From Polyporus tsugae (Eukaryota; Basidiomycota; Agaricomycetes; Polyporales; Polyporaceae), in NCBI GenBank assembly GCA_024305745.1, contig JAHRBS010000007.1, positions 3,951,776-4,015,775 on the forward strand: 64,000 nucleotides of DNA, in the 5' to 3' direction. Below the pieces are notes generated by a model. It had not been told where the DNA came from and did no database searches. It worked only from the letters and a program-made list of their open reading frames with translations. A program made the translations under genes and the position numbers. Positions 2,944 through 60,000 of this stretch are shown here, piece after piece (the first letter of the stretch is position 1; every line of letters starts with the position of its first letter).

Positions 2944-5834
2944 GGGTATGTCTGCTCCCGGCCGATGAATGCGGGACCTTTGTCGATGCGAAAGTGAGCA
3001 AGAGCAGAACTCATGAGTGGGCTGGTTGTCGACACGAGTGATGCCGCAGTGATCCTATGATACCGCAGGACGCAGAGAGAGATTACACCGAAACAAGCCA
3101 GCGAGATTTGATAGCGTTGACCAGCAGCGAGTACAGCCCGAACGAAGAGGAGAGATGTCTGGTCAAGGCGTTGGAAGAAAGTTGGGCATGAAGCTTGCAC
3201 GATCCACGCCGGACGCGTCGTGGCTGGGCGCCATCAGGACGGCTGTTGTCCGGAAAGCGCCGTAAGACCTTTCCCTTCAACTTGAACCGGCCCACCCACA
3301 GCTGCGTGCGGTGCGAATCGTCACGCTTTCTCTTACTAACATCCCCGCGACCGACATACACATCCTTCATGGCGAATGTGCCCATAGGTAGATCTCTGTG
3401 ACGGACATACCGCACTGCCGATTCTCTTCAAGACGTCTCCAAGCTGTCGAGTCCCCCAAGCTGTCTCCCTTGGCTCAGGTCTGGGTAAGTACAGTCTCCC
3501 GCTCAGTCATTTGTCTTGTACGTTTGATGAGAAGTGAAGGGCTGCGCTGATTGTCGCTTTCATGCCAGGGACCCATGACCAAAGCCGACAAAGTCGAGGC
3601 AACTTCTTCCCTGAGGCCTCAGGCCTCGGACTCACATGAATACGTACCCGGGGATCAAACCCGTTCCGGCCTCTATGTACAACCCTCCGATCCCCGCGCA
3701 ATGTCGTCACATTTGTCATGAGCATTATTGTATTGTATGTCGGGCCACAGTTGTGTGTCTCACCCTCAGTAATGGCCGTTCGTACGGTGACCTACTGTAA
3801 CTGTCCCCCCGAGATAGGTATCTTACCGCACCACCCAGTGCCGGGCCCCGCAGTCCTCCTGGGCACAGCAACGGTCGCAAGAGTACGTCAGGCTCTTCGT
3901 CCAGCCCGACCCAGCTTCAACACGAGGGAGGGGGGCGTGCGATCATCGTGACCTCGCACGTTCGGAATCAGACTGGATCAGTATAACGCAAACGAAGCCA
4001 CGCAGACCCAAGGCCTAGATCACGCCCGGCGCTGTTTCGTGGAAGACCCTGCGCTCCAAAACGACGCCGCCCGCCCAGGTATGCGGTACGGACTGTACAT
4101 GTCATCACGCGAATCGGCAGGCCAGCGAGCTTAAATTTGTGTGTGTGTACCTGGAATTTATATTGTCCATAACTGCGTACGAAGAACCAACATACCCCTT
4201 GGGAAACCTGGGAATGCCGCACACACGAGGCATCATGCATGCTTCCTCGGAGTACTTACATACTTCGAACGAAGACTCCCACCGAAACCGTGGCCCTCTC
4301 GTAAGCACGCACAAGTTTGCCTTTGGGTGTTGCAACCGTGACTGTCTGTTGGTGTTTGACGAGAGCTGCGTGCGCCATCCATCACCCCGAGCTCAGCGCC
4401 CTGCTCGCCTGCTGACTTGCGGCAGCTACGGAGGACGCTGTATCAGTGATTCGCTCCTCCACTGCTGATGGCGGTTTCGCGCATCCAGCCTCGTTAGTGT
4501 CTCTCGCTTGCAGGGGGCCAGAGCGTGCTGAGAACGTTAACGACGTACTCTAGTGGAAATTACGTGCCTCTCGCAACTGTCTCCCAAGCTTCCCGCCGAC
4601 GTCGACTAAATCGCGCCTACTTCGGGGTGCAGGTGTGGCCTTCTGTGATTGTGATTGGGGGGGGGGGGGGGGGGGGTTCCTCGCTGCGACGTCAGCATAT
4701 GGCCACGAGCTCTTCACGTACGTACTTACGTGTGTGTACGCAGCGAGAGAAACATGAAACGAGGCCGAATCACCGTGAACTGCGTATTCATCATAGCCGC
4801 TCACAGCCCGTCGCATGTTGAACATGTTCAGGAAGGGTTTTTTCGACTCCGAATTTGAGCTTCGAGCTTCCGTGAATGCGAATTCGGAGCGCGCCCGCGA
4901 AGCAACGGACATCGCCTGCGTGGTGGAGATGCCAGCGCCCAGTAACTTACTGTACTAGTACCAACCGTGCTTACTACTTCTGATAAGTAAGTTAGTTTTG
5001 AACTTTTGAGCTTTGCCGCAGAGATCTCGGCCCCTCCTCCACTGATCCTGATCCTGATCTGTGATCTGTGTACTTCGACGCAGGAACGGTTTCCTTTTGC
5101 GATGTCGAGATGGTTCCGAGCGACGGCATTTCAACTCGTGCCCGGGTCTGAACGTCGAACGTCCGGGCCCCCACAGGCATAAGTCAGTAACTTATCATAC
5201 TGTATGATAATGTAGGCTCCCCACCCCCATCCCGTCCCTTACCCGATATGGCTCCCGCCAGCCTGTGGAGTGACGTTTGGATTAAGTAGTCTCCGTTGCT
5301 GGTGGCGTCCTGGGGCTGGGGCTGGGGCTGGGGGGGGGGGGGGCTCGATCGAATCAGAATCACACCCACCACCAAGTCAAGTCGCCAAGCCACAGCCATC
5401 AAACAAAGAAAGGATCGGGACGCGACGTCGAAATCGTCGATCGTCACTGGTCAGTCAGTCGACCATCGGAACCCAGGTACCCACCAGCTGAGCTCAGTGA
5501 GGGAGGGCACGGGACGCGGCGAAGCGAGTTGCCAGGGCCCCGCCCCGCCCCGCGTTCCCGGAATGGCGTGCGCCGCTCCGTTAGTGCGACAGGTCGGGCA
5601 GATGTTGGAAGAGCGTGTGGCGTCCATCCACGGGTAAGTAAGTGGAAGTGGCAGAGTGGACGCTGATGGCGTGAACGTTGATGGGATTGTGCAAAGCTGT
5701 CCGCGCAAGCGGTAACTTTGCTACCGAGTACTAAGTTTAAGTTACGGTACGCTTGCGAGTGTACAGTACAGATGGGAGTCAGGACGAAGGGCGAGCGTCA
5801 CCATGGCATGAGGGAGACGGACAAGCGGGCTCGC
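2944..5834. other. Intergenic, no supported gene
   Basis: No reading frame in this stretch shows a recognisable domain, family motif or consistent intron structure. It holds a G20 homopolymer at 4657-4676 and a (GGGGCT)-type run ending in G13 at 5331-5343. Short TACTGTACTAGTAC-like and GTAAGTAAG-like strings recur. I see nothing else. Confidence 0.5.
4657..4676 (+). repeat. Poly-G tract, 20 nt
   Basis: Uninterrupted run of twenty G. Similar tracts lie at 5331-5343 (13), 7038-7046 (9), 13281-13290 (10), 13626-13645 (20) and 38358-38373 (16). Exact lengths of such homopolymers are often unreliable in assemblies. Confidence 0.9.
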
Positions 5835-37044: not shown

Positions 37045-37129
37045 ATATCCTTCAAGACAATTTAAAGGGTGCAAAGTTGGGGGGGATTATGGTTAGACCT
37101 AGGTTATGGCCACACGAATCCTGAAAACC

Positions 37130-38003
37130 TGCGAGAATGCAGGGCGACTGCAACCTCGCAGCGTTTACACGAGTGCATCAAGCGGGTGACTGCGAGATTG
37201 CAGGAGAACTGCGTTCTCGCAAGGAATGCACATAAGGTGCGAGGTAGCAGGGCAACTGCGTTCTCGCACCCATGCGTGAGATCAACTGCGAGAAAGCAGG
37301 GCGACTGCAATCTCGCAGCGTTTACAGGAATGTGTCCAACGGAAGAGTGCGAGATTGCAGGTGAACTGCATTCTCGCAAGGAACGGACATACGATGCGAG
37401 GTCGCAGGTGAACTGCATTCTCGCAATGTTCACGGAGGTAGATATTGTGAATGACTGCGAGAACGCAGGGCATCTGCTATCACGGAGCATTCACGGAAAT
37501 ATATAATATATGATTCACTGCGGGGTAGCAGGTGGCCTGCGTTCCCGCAAGCGACAAGAAGTGTCGATACGGTGCGAGAAAGCAGGGCGACTGCAACCTC
37601 GCAGTATACACATGAGTTGAAATGGGCGACTGCGAGGATGCAGGAGAACTGCATTCTCGCACGGATGGGTGAGATCGACTGCGAGAACGCAGGGCGACTG
37701 CAACCTCGCAGTGGTTGTATGAGTGCGTGAAACGGATGAGTGCGAGAATGCAGGTGAACTGCATTCTCGCAAAGAATGGACATACGGTGCGAGGTTGCAG
37801 GCGAACTGCGTTCTCGCAACGTTCGCAGAGGCAGACACTGTGAATGATTGCGAGAACGCAGGACAACTGCTATCTCGCAGCATTCACGAACGTGGATAGT
37901 GGCATTGGTGCGAGGTAGCAGGTGTCCTGCGTTCTCGCAGGAGTTGGATGGGAAAGTGAGGTATATGATATGTGCGAGAATGCAGTGAGACTGCATCCTC
38001 GCA
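37130..38003. repeat. Array of sixteen 31-nt hairpin units
   Basis: Units start at 37130, 37191, 37238, 37287, 37348, 37395, 37456, 37519, 37573, 37631, 37680, 37741, 37788, 37849, 37909 and 37973. Each follows one plan: TGCGAG, 3 nt, GCAG, 5 nt, CTGC, 3 nt, CTCGCA. The outer 6-nt and inner 4-nt arms are inverted complements, so each can fold as a 6-bp stem, a 3x3 internal loop, a 4-bp stem and a 5-nt loop, in DNA or RNA on either strand. Unit 7 is the most decayed, unit 8 has compensating changes (CGGGGT... CCCGCA). Spacers of 16-33 nt are not palindromic. No consistent ORF spans the array. It is not a bacterial CRISPR: the genome is fungal, spacers are repeated and there are no cas genes. 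Confidence 0.9.
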
Positions 38004-38319
38004 ACGTACGGGAACAGAACACAGCGGGCGACGTACGCGACAGAAAACGAGTGCGCCGAGGGTCTTTGGGGGCTATGACACGCGCTGCACGACGAATCAG
38101 GCAGGTGGAGTGGCTGGGGTCCAGGTGATCTTAACAGGCCTATTCGCCTAATACCGGGCCCAAGGGCCTAGGTTCCGCCCATCTCCGCCCCAAAGCGGGC
38201 CCCTCGGCGTGGGAAGGGGCCCATCGGAAAGCCGCCGCCGCCGCCGTCGCGACGGTCCCATTCCCATGAAAATCTGCCGCATTTTGAGCGCACACCGGAC
38301 CTCGCGCCCTGGAGCCTCG

Positions 38320-39007: not shown

Positions 39008-39037
39008 TTAGGGTTAGGGTTAGGGTTAGGGTTAGGG
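39008..39037 (+). repeat. Interstitial telomeric repeat (TTAGGG)5
   Basis: Five perfect TTAGGG units followed by a degenerate GTAGG. A further GGGTTAGGGTCAGG lies at about 38862. TTAGGG is the usual telomere repeat of basidiomycetes. The array is internal, with tens of kilobases on both sides. Confidence 0.95.
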
Positions 39038-43899: not shown

Positions 43900-46800
43900 C
43901 GGGGGACTGGCCGTAACATCCGATCTATATGTACTAGTAACGTAAACCACCTAGAGGAATCATTTGTACCTAAATCAAACTATCTATATCTCGCTTCATC
44001 ACGCAGACAGCGACAGTCACTCGATTTAAAACTCACCCTCAGGCAAGGAATACGTGAAATCCAGTCAGAAGGGCTCCTAGATTGTGGAGCCTATTCGAGT
44101 TTTGCACACTATCGTTTTGTTCAGGAACATGGCCTGGAATTACAACGCCTCTCACGAGAGATACGAGTGTTCAATGCCGATGCAATGGAGAACAAGAAGG
44201 GTCTGATCACGCACTATGTCCGGTGTCTTGTCACAATCGACAACCACACTAGTTGGCAGTCCTTTCTGGTCACAGATATAGGAAACGAGGATATCATTGT
44301 CGGCATGACTTTCCTCCGGGAACACAACCCAGAAGTTGATTGGAAGGCGGGTCAAGTAAAGTTTACACGCTGCCCGCACACCTGTCTACCCAGCCCAGTT
44401 TCGGTACAGGACAAAGAAATCCGGACGGTGGAGGAGCCCCGACTAGAGGAGTTTGCACGAGACACCTACGGTCAGCTAGACCGCGAGCCCTGGGACAGTG
44501 CCGAACAGTTTGTACATTGAATGCAGTTTTCTGATGACCCTGATGCCTGCGCTCTGCGAACACGGATTGAGGAGAAGAAGGAAGGAACACCAGTGCCAGG
44601 AAGCCAAGACAAGGACTACTGGTCTAATCATGTGCCCACCCACTATCATCAGTACGGTGACGTGTTTTCCAAGACAGCCTCAGAGCGGATGCCAACTCGC
44701 AAGCCCTATGCCCACCCCATTGAGTTTGTGGAAGGAGCAACACTGCCAAAGCCAGCAAAGCTTTACCCACTCAACCTCCAGGAACGGAACTCTCTCGATG
44801 GATGGATCAATGAACAGGAAGCTAAGGGATATATCCAAAGGTCAAAGAGCCCAGCTGCTGCTCCTGTATTCTTTGTCAAGAAAAAGGATGGCAGCCTGCA
44901 ACTGGTACAGGACTACCGCGCCCTCAATGCTGTCACCAAGAAGGACAAGTTCCCTATACCACGGATCCCGGACCTTATCGACCGTTTATCTCAGTCATCA
45001 ATCTTCACCTCACTGGACCTGAGGTGTGGGTACAATAATGTTTGTATACGGAAAGGAGATGAAGAGAAGGCAGCGTTTATCACTCACCGTGGTCTGTACG
45101 AGCCAACGGTGATGACTTTTGGTCTTTGCAATGCCCCAAGCACCTTCCAGGCTATGACAAATGAGATCCTCAAGGAGGAGATTGCTATGGGACATGTGGT
45201 AGTTTACATTGACAATATCCTCATCTTCACAGATGAACTCACACTCCACCGGCAACTCACAGAACAAGTGCTCCAGAAACTACGGGCAAACAATCTCTTC
45301 ATTAAGCCTGAGAAGTGCAAGTTTGAACAACAGTCGGTTGAATTCCTTGGGCTGATCATCTCGAAGGACTCCATCACCATGGACCCAGCCAAGGTTGAAG
45401 GTGTAAAGAACTGGCCAACGCCAACCAAAGTCAAGCATGTACAAGCATTCCTTGGCCTTGCCAACTTCTACTGATGTTTCATCAAGGACTTCTCAAAGAT
45501 AGCTCACCTGCTCACAGTTCTCACCTGCAAGGACGCACCTTGGCAGTGGGGAGAAGACCAAGAAAATGCCTTCCAGAGCCTCAAGACCGCCTTCACCACT
45601 GCTCCGATCCTCCAAATCCCCAATGACACTGCACCTTTCCGCCTGGAAACAGACTCATCTGACTTTGCCACAGGGGCAGTACTGGAACAGTTGGGTGAAG
45701 ATAAACTATGGCACCCAGTAGTGTTTTACTCCAAGTCCTTGAATGAGCATGAACGCAACTATGAGATCTATGACAAGGAGTTACTGGCCATCATACGCGC
45801 TTTGGAGGAATATCACCACTACCTGGAGGGACACCCTGAGCCGGTTGAGATCTGGTCGGATTACCTTAACCTCACCTACTTCTGGCAGGCCCAGAAGCTC
45901 ACTTGTCGCCAAGCTCGCTGGAGTTTATTCCTTTCCCGTTTCAACTTCAACCTACAACACCGATCTGGCAAGACAATGCTTCGTGCCGACCCTCTGTCCA
46001 GGAGGCCAGATCATGAGGAGGGGGTAAACAGCAACAATGATGGTTGAATGCTGCTGAAGCCGGAGTTTTTTGCCATCAAAGCCATGCAAACCACCCACAC
46101 CTCTGAAGTTGACGACAAGCAACTACTGGACAAGATCAAGAAGGCACTTGAAGATGACACAATGACCAAGGATTACAAGGCACTGCTCAATAGCAGCCCT
46201 CGGGAGTTTGGAAAGCCACTGCAAGAATGGAACTTCAAGAACGGTCTCCTGCTCTATCAGGGAAAGGTCTATGTCCCAAAGGACCAGGAACTACGACTGG
46301 AGCTGCTCAAACTCCACCATGACACCACACTCGCTGGGCACCCTGGCCAATGGAAGACCCAGGAACTTATCAGCCGCAACTACTGGTGGCCTGGAATGTC
46401 AGTCGATGTCAAGAAGTATGTCAAGGGGTGCGAAACATGCCAACGTAATAAAGCCTCACGCAACCCTCCCTTCGGACTACTGCAGCCAAATAAAGTCCCA
46501 GCTGGGCCATGGGAGATCTGGAGCATTGACCTCATCACTCAACTTCCTGAGTCCTGTGACAGACACGGCAATGTTTACACGGCCATCGCAGTGGTGGTAG
46601 ACCAGTTGACCAAGCGAGCCCACTTCTTTGCATGTGATGACCACTTCTCAGCCTCAGATGTGGCAGAGCTTGTCTACAAACACATACTCAAACATCATGG
46701 CCTACCCCGACAGATCATTTCAGATCGAGGAACACAGTTTGCCAGTGCGCTCTTCAAGGAGTTTTGTGGGAAGCTGGGCATCTGAGCCTCTATGTCAACA

Positions 46801-47667
46801 GCCTATCACCTCCAAACCGATGGTCAGACGGAACGAGTCAACCAGTCATTAGAACAGTACCTACGGATCTTCACCAAACACCGCCCAGACAATTGGGCCT
46901 CCCTTCTGTCCACTGCCGAGTTTTCCTACAACAATGCTGCACACGAGTCTACCGGCTTATCACCCTTCTTTGTGGAATATGGATACCACCCCAAGATGGC
47001 CCCAGATGTACAGGGAGAACTAGGTTTCCCGACCCTCAAGGACATCTTCCAGTACCAAACAGAGGCCCGGGAACAGGCACAAGCATCCCTAATCCTCGCT
47101 ACAGAACGGATGAAGTGGTACTACGACAAACACAAGAGTGAAGTGCCATTCAAGGTTGGGGACAAAGTCCTCCTCAAAGGAAGGGACCTCAGGATCAAAC
47201 AGTCATCAGCAAAGTTATCCGCAAAGAACTATGGGCCCTACAAAATCGTCAATCAAGTTGGGCCGGTCAATTTTCATCTACAACTCCCAGCCACAAACAA
47301 GGTCCACCCTGTCTTCCATGCTTCCAAACTCATCCCCTACCACGAGGACAAGATTGGCAACCATAACCCGTCGAAACCACCAGTCATAGAGGTGGAAGGA
47401 CATGACAAGTTTGAGGTCGAAAAGATCCTCGACTCCAAGACCTACTACGGATATGTCCGATACCTTGTGAAATGGGTTGGATACAATATCAGCGAAGCCA
47501 CTTGGGAACCAGTACAGAATGTCAAGCACTGCAAAGAACTACTCGATGAATTCCACACCTCGCACCCTGATGCTGTTCAACCAATATCCCTCACCAATCC
47601 ACGGCCGGTACAAGCTCAGTTTAATCATCAAGTTTGGTACGATCGCTTCGCTGGAGCTCAGCCTTGA
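43900..47667 (+). pseudogene. Element B pol (Ty3/Gypsy chromovirus) with four in-frame TGA
   Basis: The frame continues that of gag after its TAA. Order: protease (LLDCGAYSSF near 44080, so D-C-G), reverse transcriptase (FFVKKKDGS, LDLRCGYNN, catalytic box YIDN), RNase H (ETDSSDFATG), integrase (H-H-C-C zinc finger with WWPG; then SIDLITQLP, ISDRGTQF and the Glu in QTERVNQ) and a C-terminal chromodomain (FEVEKILDSK to ATWEPVQN). This order RT-RH-IN-chromodomain defines chromoviruses. Stops lie at 44518-44520, 45472-45474, 46045-46047 and 46783-46785; all are TGA where Arg is expected. The RT box has Asn for the second Asp. Dead element. Confidence 0.88.
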
Positions 47668-50514: not shown

Positions 50515-53500
50515 TGATTTTCTGTACTGGGTTCGTCATTTGTATATGAAGTAAATCACGATGGTCAACACTTTCATATACCGGTACAGTTAATTGGCAA
50601 GCAGCGACATAAGGACATTGTAGCTATGGTAGATAATGGTGCTACTACTAAGTTCCTACATAAACAATTCGTAGAACAGAATAGGGTTACCATGAGGAAG
50701 TTGGCAAGGCCAATTCCTCTGTACAACATCAACGGTTCAGAGAACCGTGATGGTACGATCACAGAGGTTGCCGTGTTGGATATGGCAATCGGAGACCACA
50801 GGGAGAAGGTGGTCTTTCTAGTGACAGATATAGGAGAAGAGGATGTCATCATCGGCCTGGACTGGCTACACGAGCACAACCCTGAAGTAGACTGGGAATG
50901 TGGCTTGCTGTGCCTGTCGAGATGTCCAGAGACATGCCCGGCTAACCAGAGAACCTCTGAACCTGTCGAGACCAAAGCGCGTGATACAGAGGTACGGCTT
51001 ATGGCGCGCCACGATCCTCAATGGGCAAAGAAGGTTAGGAAGGTTGGAAGGGTGTGTGTGGCCGTGATGACTGAGGAGAAGGAGGAGGATAGGCCCTGGC
51101 CGCCAGGATTCCTGCCATGGTGGGATGGAACTGAGACGTCTCTTCTCGATGCACGGGAGGACGGACAACGCCTTTATGGTGCTCCACAACTGTTTGCTTC
51201 AGCGACGTACACATATTCACAACAACTCGCTGAGCAAGAGTACCAGAAGAAGGAAGTCCGCCCCGTCAAAGAGACCATACCTGAGCACTATCATGAATAC
51301 TTGCATGTGTTCTCGAAGGAGGCATCCGAACGTTTGCCAGAACACGGACCCTATGACCATGCAATAGAGCTTGTGCCCGATGCAAAGATGTTCCATTCCT
51401 GTGTGTACCCCCTATCGCCCAGCAAACAAGGAGAGCTTGACAAGTTTCTCGCTAAGAACTTGGCCAAAGGCTATATTCAAGAGTCAAAGTCACCGATGTT
51501 GTCGCTGTTCTTCTTTGTCAAGAAGAAGGATGGTAGCTTATGTCCAGTCCAGGACTATCGGCGACTCAACAAGATCACCATTAAGAACCATTACCCACTG
51601 CCATTGGTATCGGATCTGATGGATCGACTCAAGAAGGCCAAGTACTTCACAAAGCTCGATATTCGCTGGGGGTACAACAACATGCGGGTTAAGGCCGGCG
51701 ATGAGTGGAAGACTGCCTTTGTGACCAATCGAGGGCTGTTCGAGCCAAACATTATGTTCTTTGGGCTAGCCAATTCACCCAGCACATTCTCTGCGCTCAT
51801 GAACGACATCTTCAAGGACCTCATCATACTCGGCAAAGTCACTATCTACCTCAATGACATCCTCATATTCACCAACAGTCTCGAGGAACATCGCACATTG
51901 GTGCGCAAGGTCCTGAAACGTCTTAAGGAGAACGATCTGTTCTGCAAGCCAGAGAGAAGTGCGAGTTCGAACAACCTAAGGTGGAATACCTCGGTGTACT
52001 TGTCTCAGAGAACTGTGTAGAAATGGACCGGGTGAAGGTGAAGGGTATTGCAGATTGGCCTGTCCCTCAGAATGCCACAGACGTATGGAAGTTCCGTGGT
52101 TTCGCAAACTTCTATTGGCGGTTCATAAAGGACTTTAGTGCCATCTGCAAACTCTTGGATCGCCTCACGGGCAATGCACCATGGCAATGGGGAGACAAAG
52201 AGCAGTCTGCCTTTAACAAGCTCAAGCGTTGCTTCACCAAAAGCCCTGTCCTAACGATCTATGATCCAGACTGCAACACCCGCATTGAAGTCGACGCATC
52301 TGGCTTCGCTACAGGCACGGTTCTGTCTCAGGAGGGGGAAGATGGCAAATGGCACCCCGTCGCTTTTCACTCCGAGTCGATGAACGACGCTGAACGCAAC
52401 TATGAGATCTACGACAAGGAGATGCTCGCCATCATTTGTGCCCTGCAGGCCTGGTGTCACTATCTCGAGGGTCTCCCCAGTGTGTTCGAAATCCAGTCAG
52501 ACCACAAGAACCTCGAGTATTGGCGCACAGCACAGAACCTCACACGCAGGCAGGCACAATGGGCTCTCTATCTGTCACGATTCGACTTTGTCATCTCGCA
52601 CAAGCCTGGGACGTCTAACGGTAGGGCCAATGCACTGTCAAGACGGCCCGACCACCAGCACAAGGATGCAGACGACAATCTCGGTCGAGTCTTGTTGCAG
52701 CCAGAACAATTCCAGGTATTGGCAGCCAAGAGAGGGCACCTATCGGTGGTTCCAGAGAAGGCACTGCTTCGGCATATCCGCAAGTGTGGAGAACACCAAC
52801 AGGAGGTTGTGGAGGCACTCAGTAAGCTGGACAAGCTTGGACCAGCGTGTCTTCAGAACGACTTGGTGGACTGGAACAGTGAGCAAGGCCTGCTACTGTA
52901 CCGAGGCAAAGTCTATGTCCCCAAGGACGACGCACTGCGTGCTGAGATTGTACGCATCCACCACGACCTCCCGCCTGCTGGACACCCTGGGCAGTCAAAG
53001 ACGTTGGAGTTGGTCACGCGAAACTACTGGTGGCCGGGCATGGCAAAGTTCATTAAGGATTACGTTGAGACCTGCAACACCTGTCGCCACGGCAAGGGTT
53101 CACATGCCAAACCACATGGTCCACTTCAACCAAACGAAATCCCTGATGGCCCGGGCCAGGTTGTGACGTGCAACTTCATCACTGGACTCCCAGAGGTGGA
53201 TGGATACAACGCGCTTCAGCTCATCGCTGACTGGCATGGAAAGATGATACATCTTATTCCTTGCACCGAGGAGATCGATGCAGAAGGAGCTGCGGATAAC
53301 TTCATCCGAGAACATTTTCATCTTCACGGGCTGCCACGGAAGATCATCTCTGATCGTGGGCCCCAGTTCTCAAGCAAGCTCTTCCGCGCCGTGCTCAAGG
53401 GACTCGGCATAGAAAGTGCAATGTCCACAGCCTACCACCCTCAGACGGATGGGCAATCGGAACGATGGAACCAGGAGATAGAGGTGTACCTTCATATGTT

Positions 53501-54233
53501 CTGCTCACAGCGCTGCGATGACTGGGTCCAGTGGCTGCCGATTGCAGAGTTCGCCTTTAACTCGCACCAGCACTCGTCAATGGGTTACTCGCCATTCTAC
53601 CTCATGTACGGCTCTGAACCCCAGTTCCATATTCCAATATTGCCTATGGCGGTGCCTGCGGCTGATGAACATCAAGAGGAGTTGCGACAGGCACGAGAGG
53701 ATGCAACCGCGGCCTTGACTCTGGCAGCTGAGCGGATGAAGGAGTACTATGATCGGTATGTCCGTGACGCTCCAGAGTTCAAGGAAGGCCAGAAGGTGCG
53801 GCTCGACACGAGGAACTTCCACGTTCCTGGAGTCTCTCGGAAACTGGTGGATCGGTACACTGGCCCGTATCCGGTTGTACACAGGGTGGGCAATCTAGCT
53901 TATGAGCTTAGACTCCCTAAGGACCTTGTAATCCATCCAGCGTTCCACGTCTCTCTCTTACTTCCGCACAAAGAGAGTCGACTCCCCGGTCGTCACCCGG
54001 CAGAGCCAGCAGCAATTGAGGTAGAGGGGGAGGAAGAGTACAAAGTGGAGGAAGTGTTGGAGTCACGGCGGTATGGGTGGTGGAAGAAACTGCAGTACCT
54101 CGTGCACTGGAAGGGTTGGGGCCCTGAACACGACAGCTGGGAGGATGCAGTAGACCTTGCAAATGCACCGCAACTTGTGCAGAAATTCCATTCAACGCAT
54201 GTAGAGGCACCTGGTCCTCTCAAGAAGACTTAG
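50515..54233 (+). pseudogene. Element A2 pol (Ty3/Gypsy chromovirus), broken by a 2-bp insertion
   Basis: Protease (MVDNGATTKF, D-N-G), reverse transcriptase (FFVKKKDGS, LDIRWGYNN, box YLND), then after a frame change RNase H (EVDASGFATG), integrase (zinc finger HH...CNTC, WWPG; NFITGLP, ISDRGPQF, Glu in QSERWNQ) and a C-terminal chromodomain (YKVEEVLESR to HDSWEDAVD). The frame is open from 50626 to about 51955 and again from 51981 to 54233. The break is an extra AG in GAGAGAAG near 51953, inside KPEKCEFE of the RT thumb. Besides this, three catalytic positions carry Asn: protease Ser to Asn, the first RT-box Asp, and the first integrase Asp. Otherwise this is the best preserved element here. 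Confidence 0.88.
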
Positions 54234-55059: not shown

Positions 55060-56724
55060 TCATGCCACAGCGTCTAGCTTCTCTCGCTGCTCAGCGTCTT
55101 TGGCCACTGTCCTCGCACTCTTGCTCACCTGCTTGTCTTTGTCGCCTGGTGCTGGATCGAAAGCCCAATCCTCCACAAGCCACAGCATCGTCCCTTTCAG
55201 TGTCTGATTGCGCACGGCTCGACCTCCCTTCTGGAATGCCGAGCAAAGGTCCTGAGCACCGTAGATGATAGACCAGAGGATGTTAGGTACATTGCAACCC
55301 ATTCCTGCCGCATCCGTACAGAACAACCAGCGGATTTTTCCCATTCGGAAGGCCTCCATTGTTGTCTCCTTGTAGGCATCCGAGAACACCGCAATAAAGA
55401 CAGCGAGCATCTAGGTTGGCGGCAGAACCCTTCGGAGTAAGTTGCAGGCCTCTCAAGCCTCACGCCGTGTGCTGAAATAGAAGATGGATTTAGGAAGGTC
55501 GGATGGGGTTGCAGGTCCAGCCGGCACAAGCGGGAAGAGCACAGCAAACAATGATTTTGAGTATTCCATCGGCCGGACCCAGAGGGCGAGGTTTGGACGG
55601 TCGGAACCCAGGTCTGTTCCCCAGAAAGGACGGTGCTGGCCCATTCCCACTGATTCAAAGCAGAAGTTGAAGATCTCCGTCGGGAGAGTCGCTGAGAATA
55701 GAGCCCATGGAGTCTCCATACCAGTAAGCACCCGCAGTTGCTTCAATTCTGCGTAGTCTTTACGGAACTCCTTTGCCTAGTCAAACATCACATGGGCCTC
55801 GTCGACAATGACGGCCAAGAGACGCCTGCAAAAGGCCTCGCTCCGGAACAACTGCTTGAAGTTGTTGTTACATAGGAGACACTCGGGGGATGCGTAGCAT
55901 AAGTTCGTAGGGCCGTCCTCAAGAGCCTGAAATAACGATTTCTCATTATGATCCTCGTTTATGGCCACAGCAGATATCTGCCAATCACGTAGGTCAATGC
56001 TCCCTCTTTGACCATCTGAATCCTGGGTGACGGCGCGCTGACCTTTGGCACGTTGAAACTCCCATTACACCCGCCTAGTCCCTCACCTGCAGCCTCACTT
56101 TCCCCTGCCGGTGGTCCCCTAATCACAGCCAGAGCACTCTCCGCCAAGTCACCACCTGCTTCGCACCCTCGAGGCACATTGGATATGCACGGGTCCGGTG
56201 CTGCAGAGTCCAGTACAGCCGGACGACTGGCCCCAGTTGTATATGCGGCGACTGGTGTCTTTTCGTGTCGGGTATTCATGCGGCGAACCTAGTGCAGCAT
56301 GTAAGTAGTCAATCTAACTTCCGTCACCACCCATGCAGTGTACCTGATCGCTTTGCAGCGCTTTCAAAGGGCATATCACTAGTACAAGCCCATTGAAGCC
56401 ACCCGATGCAGCCGCAATGGCAACAAGAGCAAAGACCAGCGATTTTCCAGCCCCTGTTCCCGCAACTGTCATGACATCATGGCCCTCGAGGATCTTGTTC
56501 ATAGCGCGCAACTGCCATGGCCGCGGTGCGTATCCAAAAATTGTTTCCGCGCTCTCCTTGATGACATCCTCACTAACTCGTGTCTTGACCTTTGGCCAGC
56601 ACAACAGACCCTGTCCGGCACTGTGGTCTGGTGAGCCATCTGGGGTGGTGGAGTGAGTGGTCGAATACAGGACCTTAGATGACAAGCCAAAGAGAGTCTC
56701 ACTAGAAGGGGCCGGAGAGAGCAA
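55060..56724 (-). pseudogene. RecQ-like DEAH helicase, broken
   Basis: Minus-strand motifs in order: FGYAPRPWQLRAMNKIL (Q-motif area), Walker A AGTGAGKS, VICPLKALQSDQ, then after a likely 366-bp GT-AG intron (56343-55978) AINEDHNEKS, the DEAH box VDEAHVMFD, FSATLP (motif III) and CTDAAGMGCNVPNI (motifs V-VI region). From 55977 to 55060 one frame holds apart from three stops: TAG 55779-55777, TGA 55455-55453 and TAG 55413-55411, each explicable by a C-to-T change of CAG or CGA. RecQ-like helicases of this kind are often subtelomeric in fungi (TLH genes); whether this one is related is inference. The 5' end is not visible and element C begins 79 bp upstream. Confidence 0.8.
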
Positions 56725-56797
56725 TGGCTGGCCAGTTAGGGAGACTCTGGAGGGTCACGGGCTCTGTGTAGCCCTTCTGGGAGTCTTTCGGTGTCGA

Positions 56798-57075: not shown

Positions 57076-60000
57076 CTAGTCATAAGCAAAATGTCGTACA
57101 TAGTCCTGTTGTGTATTGATTTCATTAGGATTTCGTCTTTTCCAGTCATTATATCTATGTGTCCAAAAGTCATAAGAATCTGTGTCGTATGTGATTATTT
57201 GTCCATGTTTGTCCGTAGCAGTGAGTAGGTAGCGAACGTGGATGCGCGGCGCGAACTTGTTCGCGGTGTAGAAAGCGGTGATGAGTTTCTTGGCCTCGTC
57301 CGTCTGGAGTTCATCTGTATCCGAAGGTACCCATTTGCGGTCAGCTCGTGTGAGTCCACACCATTGAACGAGGTAGTGAACTTTGCGAGATCGACCCGAT
57401 CCTTCTACGATCTTTGAATCTAAGATCGATTCAGCTTCTCGGTCGGGTTCCAAAAGAGTGGGTACTTCTCGACTGGTTTTCCCTTGATTCGGGAACTCGG
57501 GATCGTGTGCAGGGGTTAAGAGTACTTCGTTGAATATGGGATGACATAACTTCCACTTGGGTGGGAGCTTTAGGCGATATGCACTAGCGCCGACTTTTTC
57601 TTCAACTCGGAAAGGGCCGTAGTGCTTGTCTTCGAGTTTCTTGTTTGGTCGGTCGGTGGGGAAGTTCTGTGCGTCTATATATACGTAATCGCCTATCTTG
57701 TAATCTCGTGACGGTTGTCGGTGTTTGTCGTAATGTCGCTTCATCGCTTCTCGCGCTATCTCCAGCGCCTGCGCTGCTTGCTTCCCGATGTGTTGCATTC
57801 GCTCGGCGAATTGCTTGGCGGATTCATTGATGCCGTCTTTCAAAGTCTCGACTCTGGTGTTGGGTTCGTGACCGTGAGTCATGAAGAAAGGGGACATTCC
57901 TGTGGACGCGTGTACATGACATCGGTAAGCGAACTCTGCTAGTGGTAGCCATTCGACCCAGTCGTCCTGTTTGTGATTGATGAAGATCCGTAGATAGGTC
58001 TGGATCTCTTGATTCATGCGCTCGGTCTGGCTGTCGGTCTGGGGATGGTAGGCTGTACTAGGATTGCCTTCGATCCCCATCTGTCGGTAGACTTCTTTGG
58101 TGAAGGAGGACACGAGGGTAGAGCCTCGGTCCGACCATATGCGCTTGGGCAGGCTGTGGGGTACGACTACGTGTTTGATGAAGAGTCTCGCTTGTCCTTC
58201 TGAGTCTAGCGTTTTGAACAGGGGATAGCGATGTAGTCTTTGGATTTCATATCGACAAAGACTAGTATGGCATCATGTCCGTTGCATTCGGGTAATCCGG
58301 TCATATAGTCCATGGTGACGAATTGCCAGTTCTGGTCGGGAATAGGGTTGGGATGGAGTGGTGCGGCACGTGGTTGTCGATCAATCTTGACGCGCTGACA
58401 CGTGATGCATCCGGCGACGTACTTGGCAACGTCTTTCCGAATGGACGGCCACCAATAAGATCTCATGATCAGATCTTGTGTTTTGGCTGCGCCCGGGTGT
58501 CCAGCCGCGATTGAATCGTGGTGTGAAGCGATGACGCATCCGCGAAGTTCCGAGTGGTTTGGAACGACCATTCTCCCTTCCTGTAGATTAAGCCGTCCTC
58601 GGCTAACTCCCAATCATTGTCCTTTCCTAGTTTCTCAACGACAAGACGGTCATAAAGATTAACGTGTTCCAAACACATTTTCTTTAGATTGTCCGCTCCG
58701 TCTAGCGTATGAGAAGCCGCAAACCAGTGTTCCTTGAGCAACGTGAAGTTTTCGATCACGGGACCGGTTTCATGATCCACGCGTCTAGACAGAGCGTCTA
58801 CTTTGCCCATGGTACGACCTGGTTTATGGTGTAACTTGAAATGGTAGTTTGCGAGAGTTGTCGCCCAACGCGCTTGTCGCGCGTTTAGCCATTGTGGTTT
58901 TCGGAAGTATTCGAGGTTCTTGTGGTCATTATGGACCTCAAATTCTCGCGCGTTTTGGAGGAAGTGACGCCATTCTTGTAACGCGGCGATAACCGACAAC
59001 ATTTCTCGATCCCAGATCTCGTATCCTTTTTGTGCGGATGTTAAGGAATGTGATAGGAAGGCAATAGGTTTCCATAGTCCGTTCTGACACTGCGAGAGCT
59101 CGGCTCCGATCGCAAAGTTCGAGGCATCGCATTCGACTTTTAAGGGATCCGTGTCATTGGGTATGGCTAACACGGGGGCGTGTGTGATTGCGCCCTTGAT
59201 CCCTTCAAAAGCGAGTTGATGCTCTGGAGTCCATGTCCATACGTTTAGACCCGTGAGACGATTCATTGGTCCAGCGATCTTTGAGAAGTCCTTGATAAAC
59301 CGTCTATAGAAGTTTGCGAATCCGAGGAAACTCTGTACATCGCGTTTGCACGTGGGTACCGGCCAATCAGTGACACCTTTGACCTTGCCCGGGTCCATGC
59401 GGATCTCGCCGGGGGTGATGATATGACCTAGGTACTCGGTTTCCTGAGTTTCGAACTCGCACTTCTGGGGTTTACACGTAAGGTGATTGTCTCGAAGGAT
59501 CTGTAGGACTTGTCGTACTATGCGTCTGTGTTCCTCTAGATCGGCTGTACAGATGATGATGTCGTCCAAGTACACAATGACTTTTCCACGAAGAATCAGA
59601 TCTTGGAAGATCGAGTTCATCATCATTTGGAAAGTCGCCGGGGAGTTCGTTAAGCCGAAGACATGACGAGAGGTTCGTATAAGCCGCGATTTGTGATAAA
59701 CGCTGCTTTTTCCTCATCGCCTTTGACTATACAAAATATTGTTGTATCCCCAACGTAGTCTAACTTGGTGTAGTACTGGGCACCCTTCAGCCGATCTAGG
59801 ATCTGTAGCATTAGAGGAAGAGGGTACACGTTTTTCTTGGTCAAGGCGTTTAACTGTCTGTAGTCCTGGACGGGACGCAGTTTGCCGTCTTTTTTCTTGA
59901 CAAAGAAGAACGGAGCCCCCCACGAGGATTTCAATGGACGAATTCGACCCGTGGATAGATTTTCCTCTAAGAACACGTCTAGCGCTTGTTGTTTGTCTAG

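Follow-up and report, generated by a model that had tools for sequence, protein, structure and literature searches.

What are the sixteen short palindromes lined up near the end of this contig, and does their symmetry serve RNA or DNA? The window, meaning the whole analysed stretch of 64,000 nucleotides, corresponded to the final 64 kb of contig C7 (4,015,775 bases), in a genome of 43.2 Mb and 18 contigs. The original prediction, made from the letters of the window, had described a sixteen-unit array of 31-nt two-stem hairpins of no known class, in which pairing of the arms would be selected and the loops would be free.

The array and the chromosome-end element that carries it

The sixteen palindromic 31-bp units were found exactly where predicted (array A4, Table 1); when up to 3 mismatches were allowed, 100 dinucleotide shuffles of the window contained a mean of 0.01 matches. 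The plan that had been attributed to every unit was complete at all 20 fixed positions in 14 of the 16, units 7 (37456) and 8 (37519) carrying two mismatches each. The paired change TGCGGG/CCCGCA announced for unit 8 was present. In unit 7 two arm changes were uncompensated, so pairing was not maintained everywhere. Units 3 to 8 and 10 to 15 form a duplicated block (about 82% identical), and the 16 units are therefore not independent objects. A protein-coding array was rejected, since unit spacings are not multiples of three and two of the arrays described below are intronic.

Table 1. Coordinates of the element stub, its units and the five array positions (window positions unless a contig is named)
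Feature	Coordinates	Strand	Description
Element stub	37060..38130	+	1071 bp: left end, array A4 and start of leader before gene 1; aligns with 14 other copies
Fixed left end	37060..37129	+	ATTTAAAGGGTGCAAAG..., 70 bp ahead of unit 1; identical first base in 20/20 copies
Array A4	37130..38003	+	16 units x 31 bp, plan TGCGAGRWHGCAG-N5-CTGCDWYCTCGCA, start-to-start 47-64 bp; between left end and gene 1
Unit 1	37130..37160	.	0 mismatches
Unit 2	37191..37221	.	0 mismatches
Unit 3	37238..37268	.	0 mismatches
Unit 4	37287..37317	.	0 mismatches
Unit 5	37348..37378	.	0 mismatches
Unit 6	37395..37425	.	0 mismatches
Unit 7	37456..37486	.	2 mismatches; degenerate right half (CACGGA), uncompensated
Unit 8	37519..37549	.	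2 mismatches; paired change TGCGGG/CCCGCA
Unit 9	37573..37603	.	0 mismatches
Unit 10	37631..37661	.	0 mismatches
Unit 11	37680..37710	.	0 mismatches
Unit 12	37741..37771	.	0 mismatches
Unit 13	37788..37818	.	0 mismatches
Unit 14	37849..37879	.	0 mismatches
Unit 15	37909..37939	.	0 mismatches
Unit 16	37973..38003	.	0 mismatches
Leader towards gene 1	38004..38130	+	cut at 38130; runs into gene 1 in C17, C5 and C3 copies
Array A3	C17:8680-8180		in an intron of gene 1 (coordinates are those of the intron), donor GTGAGT, acceptor ACAG
Array A2			directly after gene 1
Array A1			intron of gene 2, after GTAAGT donor
Array A0			directly after gene 2; seen on C17 right only

As far as its copies tell, array A4 is the proximal end of a chromosome-end mobile element and not a free-standing satellite. 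The left end ATTTAAAGGG (window 37060) occurred 20 times in the genome. The 40-nt flanks upstream of these left ends were unrelated (42.5% identity in the best of 190 pairs), and the preceding base was T in 6, C in 5, G in 5 and A in 4 of them. All 20 left ends were oriented towards the nearest contig end; 15 lay within 45 kb of it, one on C11 at 71 kb and two on C14 at about 114 and 119 kb, so that 18 fell within 120 kb, and the two others were about 680 kb inside C1. Telomere repeats, which alone make a contig end a proven chromosome end, were seen among the retrieved ends at C1 left, C2 left, C3 right, C5 left, C9 left, C10 right, C13 left, C17 left and C17 right; the window's own end displayed none. 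No TTAGGG tract was found at the 20 element junctions.

Right ends were ragged. Homology of the window copy ended at 38130, with other DNA beyond. The copies of C1 left and C17 left were broken inside genes 1 and 2, and that of C5 left just past gene 2, each with telomere repeats beyond, and in a copy on C14 (L054) the break fell at the centre of unit 4, beyond which the sequence continued as TTAGGGTTAGGG. Several of the 14 copies aligned with the stub were shorter or internally deleted, and the number of units varied among copies through deletions between units (C1, C13, the second C17-right copy and the second C5 copy). A fixed left end, unrelated flanks and ragged right ends point to proximal attachment to chromosome ends, followed by wear or breakage from outside. 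As to whether the array is part of a known transposon, it does lie in a chromosome-end mobile element, and this element matched no described family.

Allowing up to 2 mismatches, the unit pattern had 248 sites in the genome. The retrieved element copies held 245 of these and three more were seen elsewhere in copies, so that by count all 248 lie in copies of the chromosome-end element, and a spread of the unit beyond it was rejected. The 202 exact sites (R at position 7, Y at 25, G or A centre on one strand; 99 + 77 + 26) formed clusters on C1, C2, C3 (both ends), C5, C7, C10, C13, C14, C16 and C17 (both ends). Among 474 half-sites in the genome, 443 were in the retrieved loci and the window and 5 more in L063-L067; the remaining 26 were about as rare as the 21 given by a reversed-pattern control. 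A prokaryotic genome collection yielded 6 single exact unit matches, viral contigs no unit match, and plasmids no match to 37060-38130.

Other pieces with a similar placement were observed. A second left-end family (AGGGTTATGGG / AGGGTTATGGGAACATCTCAGCC) had 15 of 15 sites near contig ends (within about 45 kb) and directed outward, on C3, C5, C6, C8, C13, C16 and C17 (e.g., C17:12655-12677), the first bases of AGGGTTATGGGAACATCTCAGCC being telomere-repeat-like. A third (ATCTCTATAATCC / ATCTCTATAATCCYGGCCCTAAG) had 23 of 23 sites within about 45 kb of contig ends, likewise outward, on C1, C2, C3, C5-C8, C10, C13, C16 and C17; CCT precedes it in the 12 junctions listed and in L065, and its true start is probably CCTATCTC. 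With two further families in the same orientation near ends, contig ends look like chains of such pieces.

Past the stub, from window 38131 onward (..CCTATTCGCCTAATACCGGGCCC), nearly identical DNA follows the broken unit of another copy (L064), and this common DNA is probably the start of another end-attaching family. Five interstitial TTAGGG repeats (39008-39037), about 1 kb beyond the array, probably mark a former telomere that later additions have covered. Further on, the window carried Ty3-type retrotransposon genes (44521-47664, 51927-54230 and 57079-58272; reverse transcriptase, integrase, chromodomain) and, on the minus strand at 56317-56754, a DEAD/DEAH helicase fragment (E 8e-12), perhaps the remnant of a telomere-linked helicase gene.

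Two conserved genes and five array positions

Longer copies of the element harbored up to five arrays and a pair of large genes in which no known domain was recognised. The C17 left copy reads towards the telomere, with gene 1 extending from about C17:11061 (aligned start of P0001) to a stop near 5045 and gene 2 starting probably near C17:2459; gene 2 is cut by the telomere there, and its end was reached on C5 and C17 right. Gene 1 was absent from the window copy, and no gene-1 match was found in the window's stretch of C7. Array centres were spaced by about 3.3, 3.8, 3.4 and 4.2 kb (C5 and C17 right coordinates). The Ganoderma leucocontextum protein is joined at the position of the A3 intron (GFKV/ITRTLD), and continuity of the G. 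adspersum homologue P0007 (1292 aa) indicates that gene 2 is one gene, which makes array A1 intronic.

Homologues of the two genes came from Ganoderma records or unnamed sources. Those of gene 1 shared 78-89% identity in G. leucocontextum and 35% in G. adspersum, on which basis the genome is probably that of a Ganoderma, and a distant homologue search with the gene-1 alignment returned only two G. leucocontextum proteins. The G. adspersum homologues of genes 1 and 2 bear adjacent locus tags (V8D89_006641 and V8D89_006640) and lie on contigs of equal size, which suggests a conserved pair. Values of dN/dS were 0.08-0.34 for six copies, all compared with C17 left and hence not independent of one another, and the compared blocks contained no stops and no gaps; by this measure genes 1 and 2 are under purifying selection.

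No confident Pfam match was obtained for genes 1 and 2 or their homologues, hence no reverse transcriptase in the part of the element seen, which stops short of the distal end of a complete copy. No recombinase domain was found in either gene, PHROGs gave no confident match for either, and PDB profile searches returned nothing for gene 1 and only E about 0.7 for gene 2. Gene 1 displayed a sub-threshold ddrB-ParB match (E=0.034; E=0.058 in one of four homologues), and its AlphaFold model was poor (mean pLDDT 38.4). The PF26608 tag on P0007 was not recovered in our own Pfam scans, leaving gene 2 without a credible domain match.

Next to the telomere of C17 right, a PHD-finger-like gene fragment (sub-threshold PHD matches) runs in the opposite direction, so further element genes may exist. 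Members of this PHD-finger-like family were seen near the element at C17:3053119-3053688 (running into the telomere), C11:2465188, C1:5008209 and C9:3292152. On C1 and C11 a left end and a PHD relative lie about 30 kb apart, and the interior block of C1 could reflect either a subtelomere that has moved or a join made in assembly.

A diverged relative of gene 1, with about 30% identity, was present at three more chromosome ends (C2 right, C13 right and C16 left). Its C2 copy holds, at L068:1588-1735, a tandem array of another palindrome, GTCCGCGCGGAC, with 4 exact and 2 degenerate copies at a 25-bp period. This array sits in a 248-nt phase-0 intron (GTGAGT donor, ACAG acceptor) whose position, by aligned codon and phase, coincides with that of the A3 intron. 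A scan for GTC[CT]GCGCGGAC over L012, L035-L056, L063-L068 and the window gave five matches in the L068 array and one at window 2184 (GTCTGCGCGGAC). From the one short tandem array read, in one of three genomic copies, it is suggested that the diverged relative carries a different palindrome in the intron equivalent to that of A3, although a 25-bp tandem repeat is short enough for the GTCCGCGCGGAC palindrome to have arisen by chance.

Half-site constraint and the reading of the unit

Each unit consists of two inverted 13-bp half-sites TGCGAGRWHGCAG with 5 bp between them. Among 78 half-sites out of 39 paralogous units, the bases of TGCGAG were each kept in 73-78 and those of GCAG in 77-78. The 3-nt part, predicted to be free, was itself restricted: position 7 was A or G in 77 of 78 half-sites, position 8 was A or T in all 78, and position 9 was never G. 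Among variable 3-nt columns, 16 of 17 stayed within R-W-H, the sole exception coming from the misaligned end of L054. The gap measured 5 bp in all 232 half-site pairs (at most 1 mismatch per half, partner within 12 bp); 22 left halves lacked a partner at that distance, some being degenerate or broken units and others chance words. A fixed spacing between half-sites in dyad symmetry, together with constrained positions, is what the site of a dimeric protein would be expected to show.

Arm constancy, as claimed at the outset, was well borne out by comparison of copies, which were trimmed and are related, so that the columns counted are not independent events. In the five nearly complete A4 copies (window, C10, C3R, C5L and C17L), variable columns amounted to 3/320 in arms vs 28/378 in spacers (p=2e-5), and across all 15 copies to 23/320 vs 72/378 (p=4e-6). 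Array A3 (6 copies) gave 0/140 vs 12/165 (p=6e-4), and A1 and A2 (3 copies each) pointed in the same direction at 0/100 vs 7/183 (p=0.054) and 0/80 vs 5/137 (p=0.16), neither significant alone. Arms mutating as freely as loops would have spoken against selection on the arms, and this was not observed among element copies: compared with the 3-nt and 5-nt parts, arms varied in 3/320 vs 11/176 columns (five copies, p=0.001) and 23/320 vs 24/176 (all 15 copies, p=0.024). Loop parts and spacers did not differ significantly (p=0.72 and 0.15). Of the loops described as free, the 5-nt centre was the freer part, and the 3-nt parts follow a symmetric R-W-H rule.

The same 3-nt parts bear on the choice between duplex DNA and RNA. 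In 40 distinct exact units, Watson-Crick pairs numbered 13 at positions 7-25, 14 at 8-24 and 11 at 9-23, vs 19.7, 22.3 and 13.9 in shuffled combinations; in 22 units more than 2 changes apart, they numbered 7, 10 and 5 vs 10.5, 13.2 and 7.5. The proposed selection for pairing was accordingly not recovered, pairing being at or below the shuffled expectation and most classes of arm variants being uncompensated. Judging from these counts, the 3-nt parts are constrained to a symmetric R-W-H and are not selected to pair. Arm variants comprised one compensated pair change (unit 8), some G-U pairs and several broken classes, with no excess of compensated over broken changes, and damage was often confined to one half with the other half intact. 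Loops of one type (GTGAA, GAGAA) were read in sense in A4 and in antisense in A1. The lack of excess 3-nt pairing, the broken arms and the loops in both directions favour recognition of half-sites in duplex DNA. Sequence evidence therefore makes it probable that a dimeric protein recognises the unit as duplex DNA, and less likely that the unit acts as an RNA hairpin; the suggestion that such a protein may bind the array sixteen times is the part of the original prediction favoured by the dyad constraint, the fixed 5-bp gap and the absence of excess pairing.

A chain of RNA hairpins, in which transcribed arrays would fold and either supply Dicer with substrate or govern the splicing, export or decay of transcripts, appears unlikely. 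All five arrays could lie in pre-mRNA (leader, introns, 3' regions), unit 8 is compensated with some G-U variants beside it, and the predicted RNA folding of the 874-nt array is far stronger than that of 20 shuffles (z -24.5), but any palindrome folds well, and the pairing, arm and loop-direction results above run against this reading. Rfam gave no family at gathering score; the best match, of two adjacent units, was mir-4650 (47.3 bits vs 80.7, E=4.8e-9). Small double-stranded RNAs from subtelomeres are mentioned in a passage of the discussion of the G. sinense paper (PMC4457147). An additional RNA role is compatible with these facts, and is best supported by the mir-4650 match below threshold and by unit 8 together with the G-U variants.

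It is decidedly improbable that the array is a neutral tandem satellite, with unit duplication and gene conversion keeping arms alike and the element a mere carrier. The duplicated block and the variation in unit number by deletions between units fit such a history, but duplication should carry spacers along, yet the two blocks differed at 36/123 spacer positions and only 4/120 arm positions (p=2e-8). An ordinary satellite would evolve in concert over unit and spacers, and the arms here diverged less than the spacers. Hairpin-templated correction would yield complementary 3-nt parts, which often are not complementary, and the unit recurs at five places of the element.

It is very unlikely that the units are sites for recombination or end-joining, at which a recombinase would attach the element or remove its distal part: the 13-5-13 plan is reminiscent of lox and FRT sites, which are built 13-8-13, and L064, L065 and the second C5 copy end at one place inside a unit, CTGCAACCT, before other sequence, but the next element begins with CCT in two of these three (CCT before ATCTCTATAAT in the 12 junctions listed and L065), so that the common breakpoint is partly that element's own start, most copies end elsewhere, no recombinase domain was found in either gene, and between most units crossing-over would be prevented by differences in the 5-bp centre.

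Under the preferred reading as a duplex-DNA site, each 31-bp unit, whose constraint was observed, would be a binding site with two inverted 13-bp half-sites 5 bp apart, and its dyad would be bound by a dimeric sequence-specific protein, perhaps the product of gene 1 or 2. Many copies of the protein would load onto five arrays about 3-4 kb apart along the element, and this loading may coat or tether it for silencing, holding, replication or delivery at chromosome ends. As its copy structure shows, the element attaches to a chromosome end by its fixed proximal end and is worn from the telomere side; the window retains just a proximal stub with array A4, hence sites without genes. Any single purpose for the arrays (tethering, silencing, maintenance or delivery) is much less certain than the binding site itself.

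Comparison with known end elements and site clusters

Fungal chromosome ends are often colonised by mobile elements, usually retroelements or helicase genes, as is generally held and as passages of two papers describe (PMC12857005, PMC7473861). Telomere-specific retrotransposons include FoTeR of Fusarium (PMC12857005), HeT-A/TART of Drosophila (PMC5537684) and MoTeR of Magnaporthe. Likenesses to them are the location at chromosome ends in one orientation, a fixed proximal end with variable distal truncation, internal tandem repeats and a helicase fragment nearby, here in the window. These retrotransposons have a reverse transcriptase, and none was found in genes 1 or 2. The element also differs from them in having no TTAGGG tract at 20 junctions, and its genes read towards the telomere, whereas HeT-A/TART read inward.

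For Agaricus bisporus, PMC7473861 mentions telomeric Penelope-like elements. Terminons and Penelope-like Coprina elements resemble the present one as long multi-gene elements on chromosome ends. No Penelope-type reverse transcriptase was seen in the element, no telomere-complementary repeat at 20 junctions and, unlike in terminons and Penelope-like elements, no hammerhead match from Rfam in the scanned window stretch. Palindrome arrays are not known to figure in the description of terminons or Penelope-like elements.

As clusters of short conserved protein sites, the arrays are comparable to yeast X/Y' STRs with Tbf1 sites, CENP-B boxes and bacterial parS clusters, which occur near chromosome ends or on selfish elements. 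They differ from these in the 31-bp dyad with 13-bp half-sites, in the placement within introns and gene gaps, and in a binding protein that is putative. As to an analogy with ParB-parS partition, gene 1, beside the sites, gave the sub-threshold ddrB-ParB match noted above. Double-hairpin elements of fungal mitochondria are also short repeated hairpin-forming units in non-coding DNA; the present units, unlike them, are nuclear, confined by count to one element and built on one fixed arm sequence.

The literature searched contained no description of the element or the unit, and neither 'palindrom' nor 'inverted repeat' occurs in the accessible text of the G. leucocontextum T2T paper (PMC10817607). 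Together with Rfam scores below gathering, this agrees with the view that the unit belongs to no known class. An end-attaching element with two conserved unclassified genes and five arrays of one exact dyad makes the search for a binding protein a sharp test; if the element encodes its own site-binding protein, it would be a eukaryotic counterpart of parS-like arrays and could readily serve to label the ends of chromosomes. Given the second palindrome in the A3-equivalent intron of the diverged relative, protein-site co-evolution would become testable within one genome.

A bolder proposal, which we put forward tentatively and with some doubt, is a new class of chromosome-end element in mushrooms, with two domain-less genes, no recognisable reverse transcriptase and its own multi-array partition or tethering, in which an element-encoded dimeric protein would sit on dyads in gaps and introns and evolve together with its palindrome, relatives keeping the positions and swapping the palindrome. 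In placement and truncation the element resembles the telomere-specific elements, but in the part seen it lacks the reverse transcriptase that they have, and its internal system of sites is unusual.
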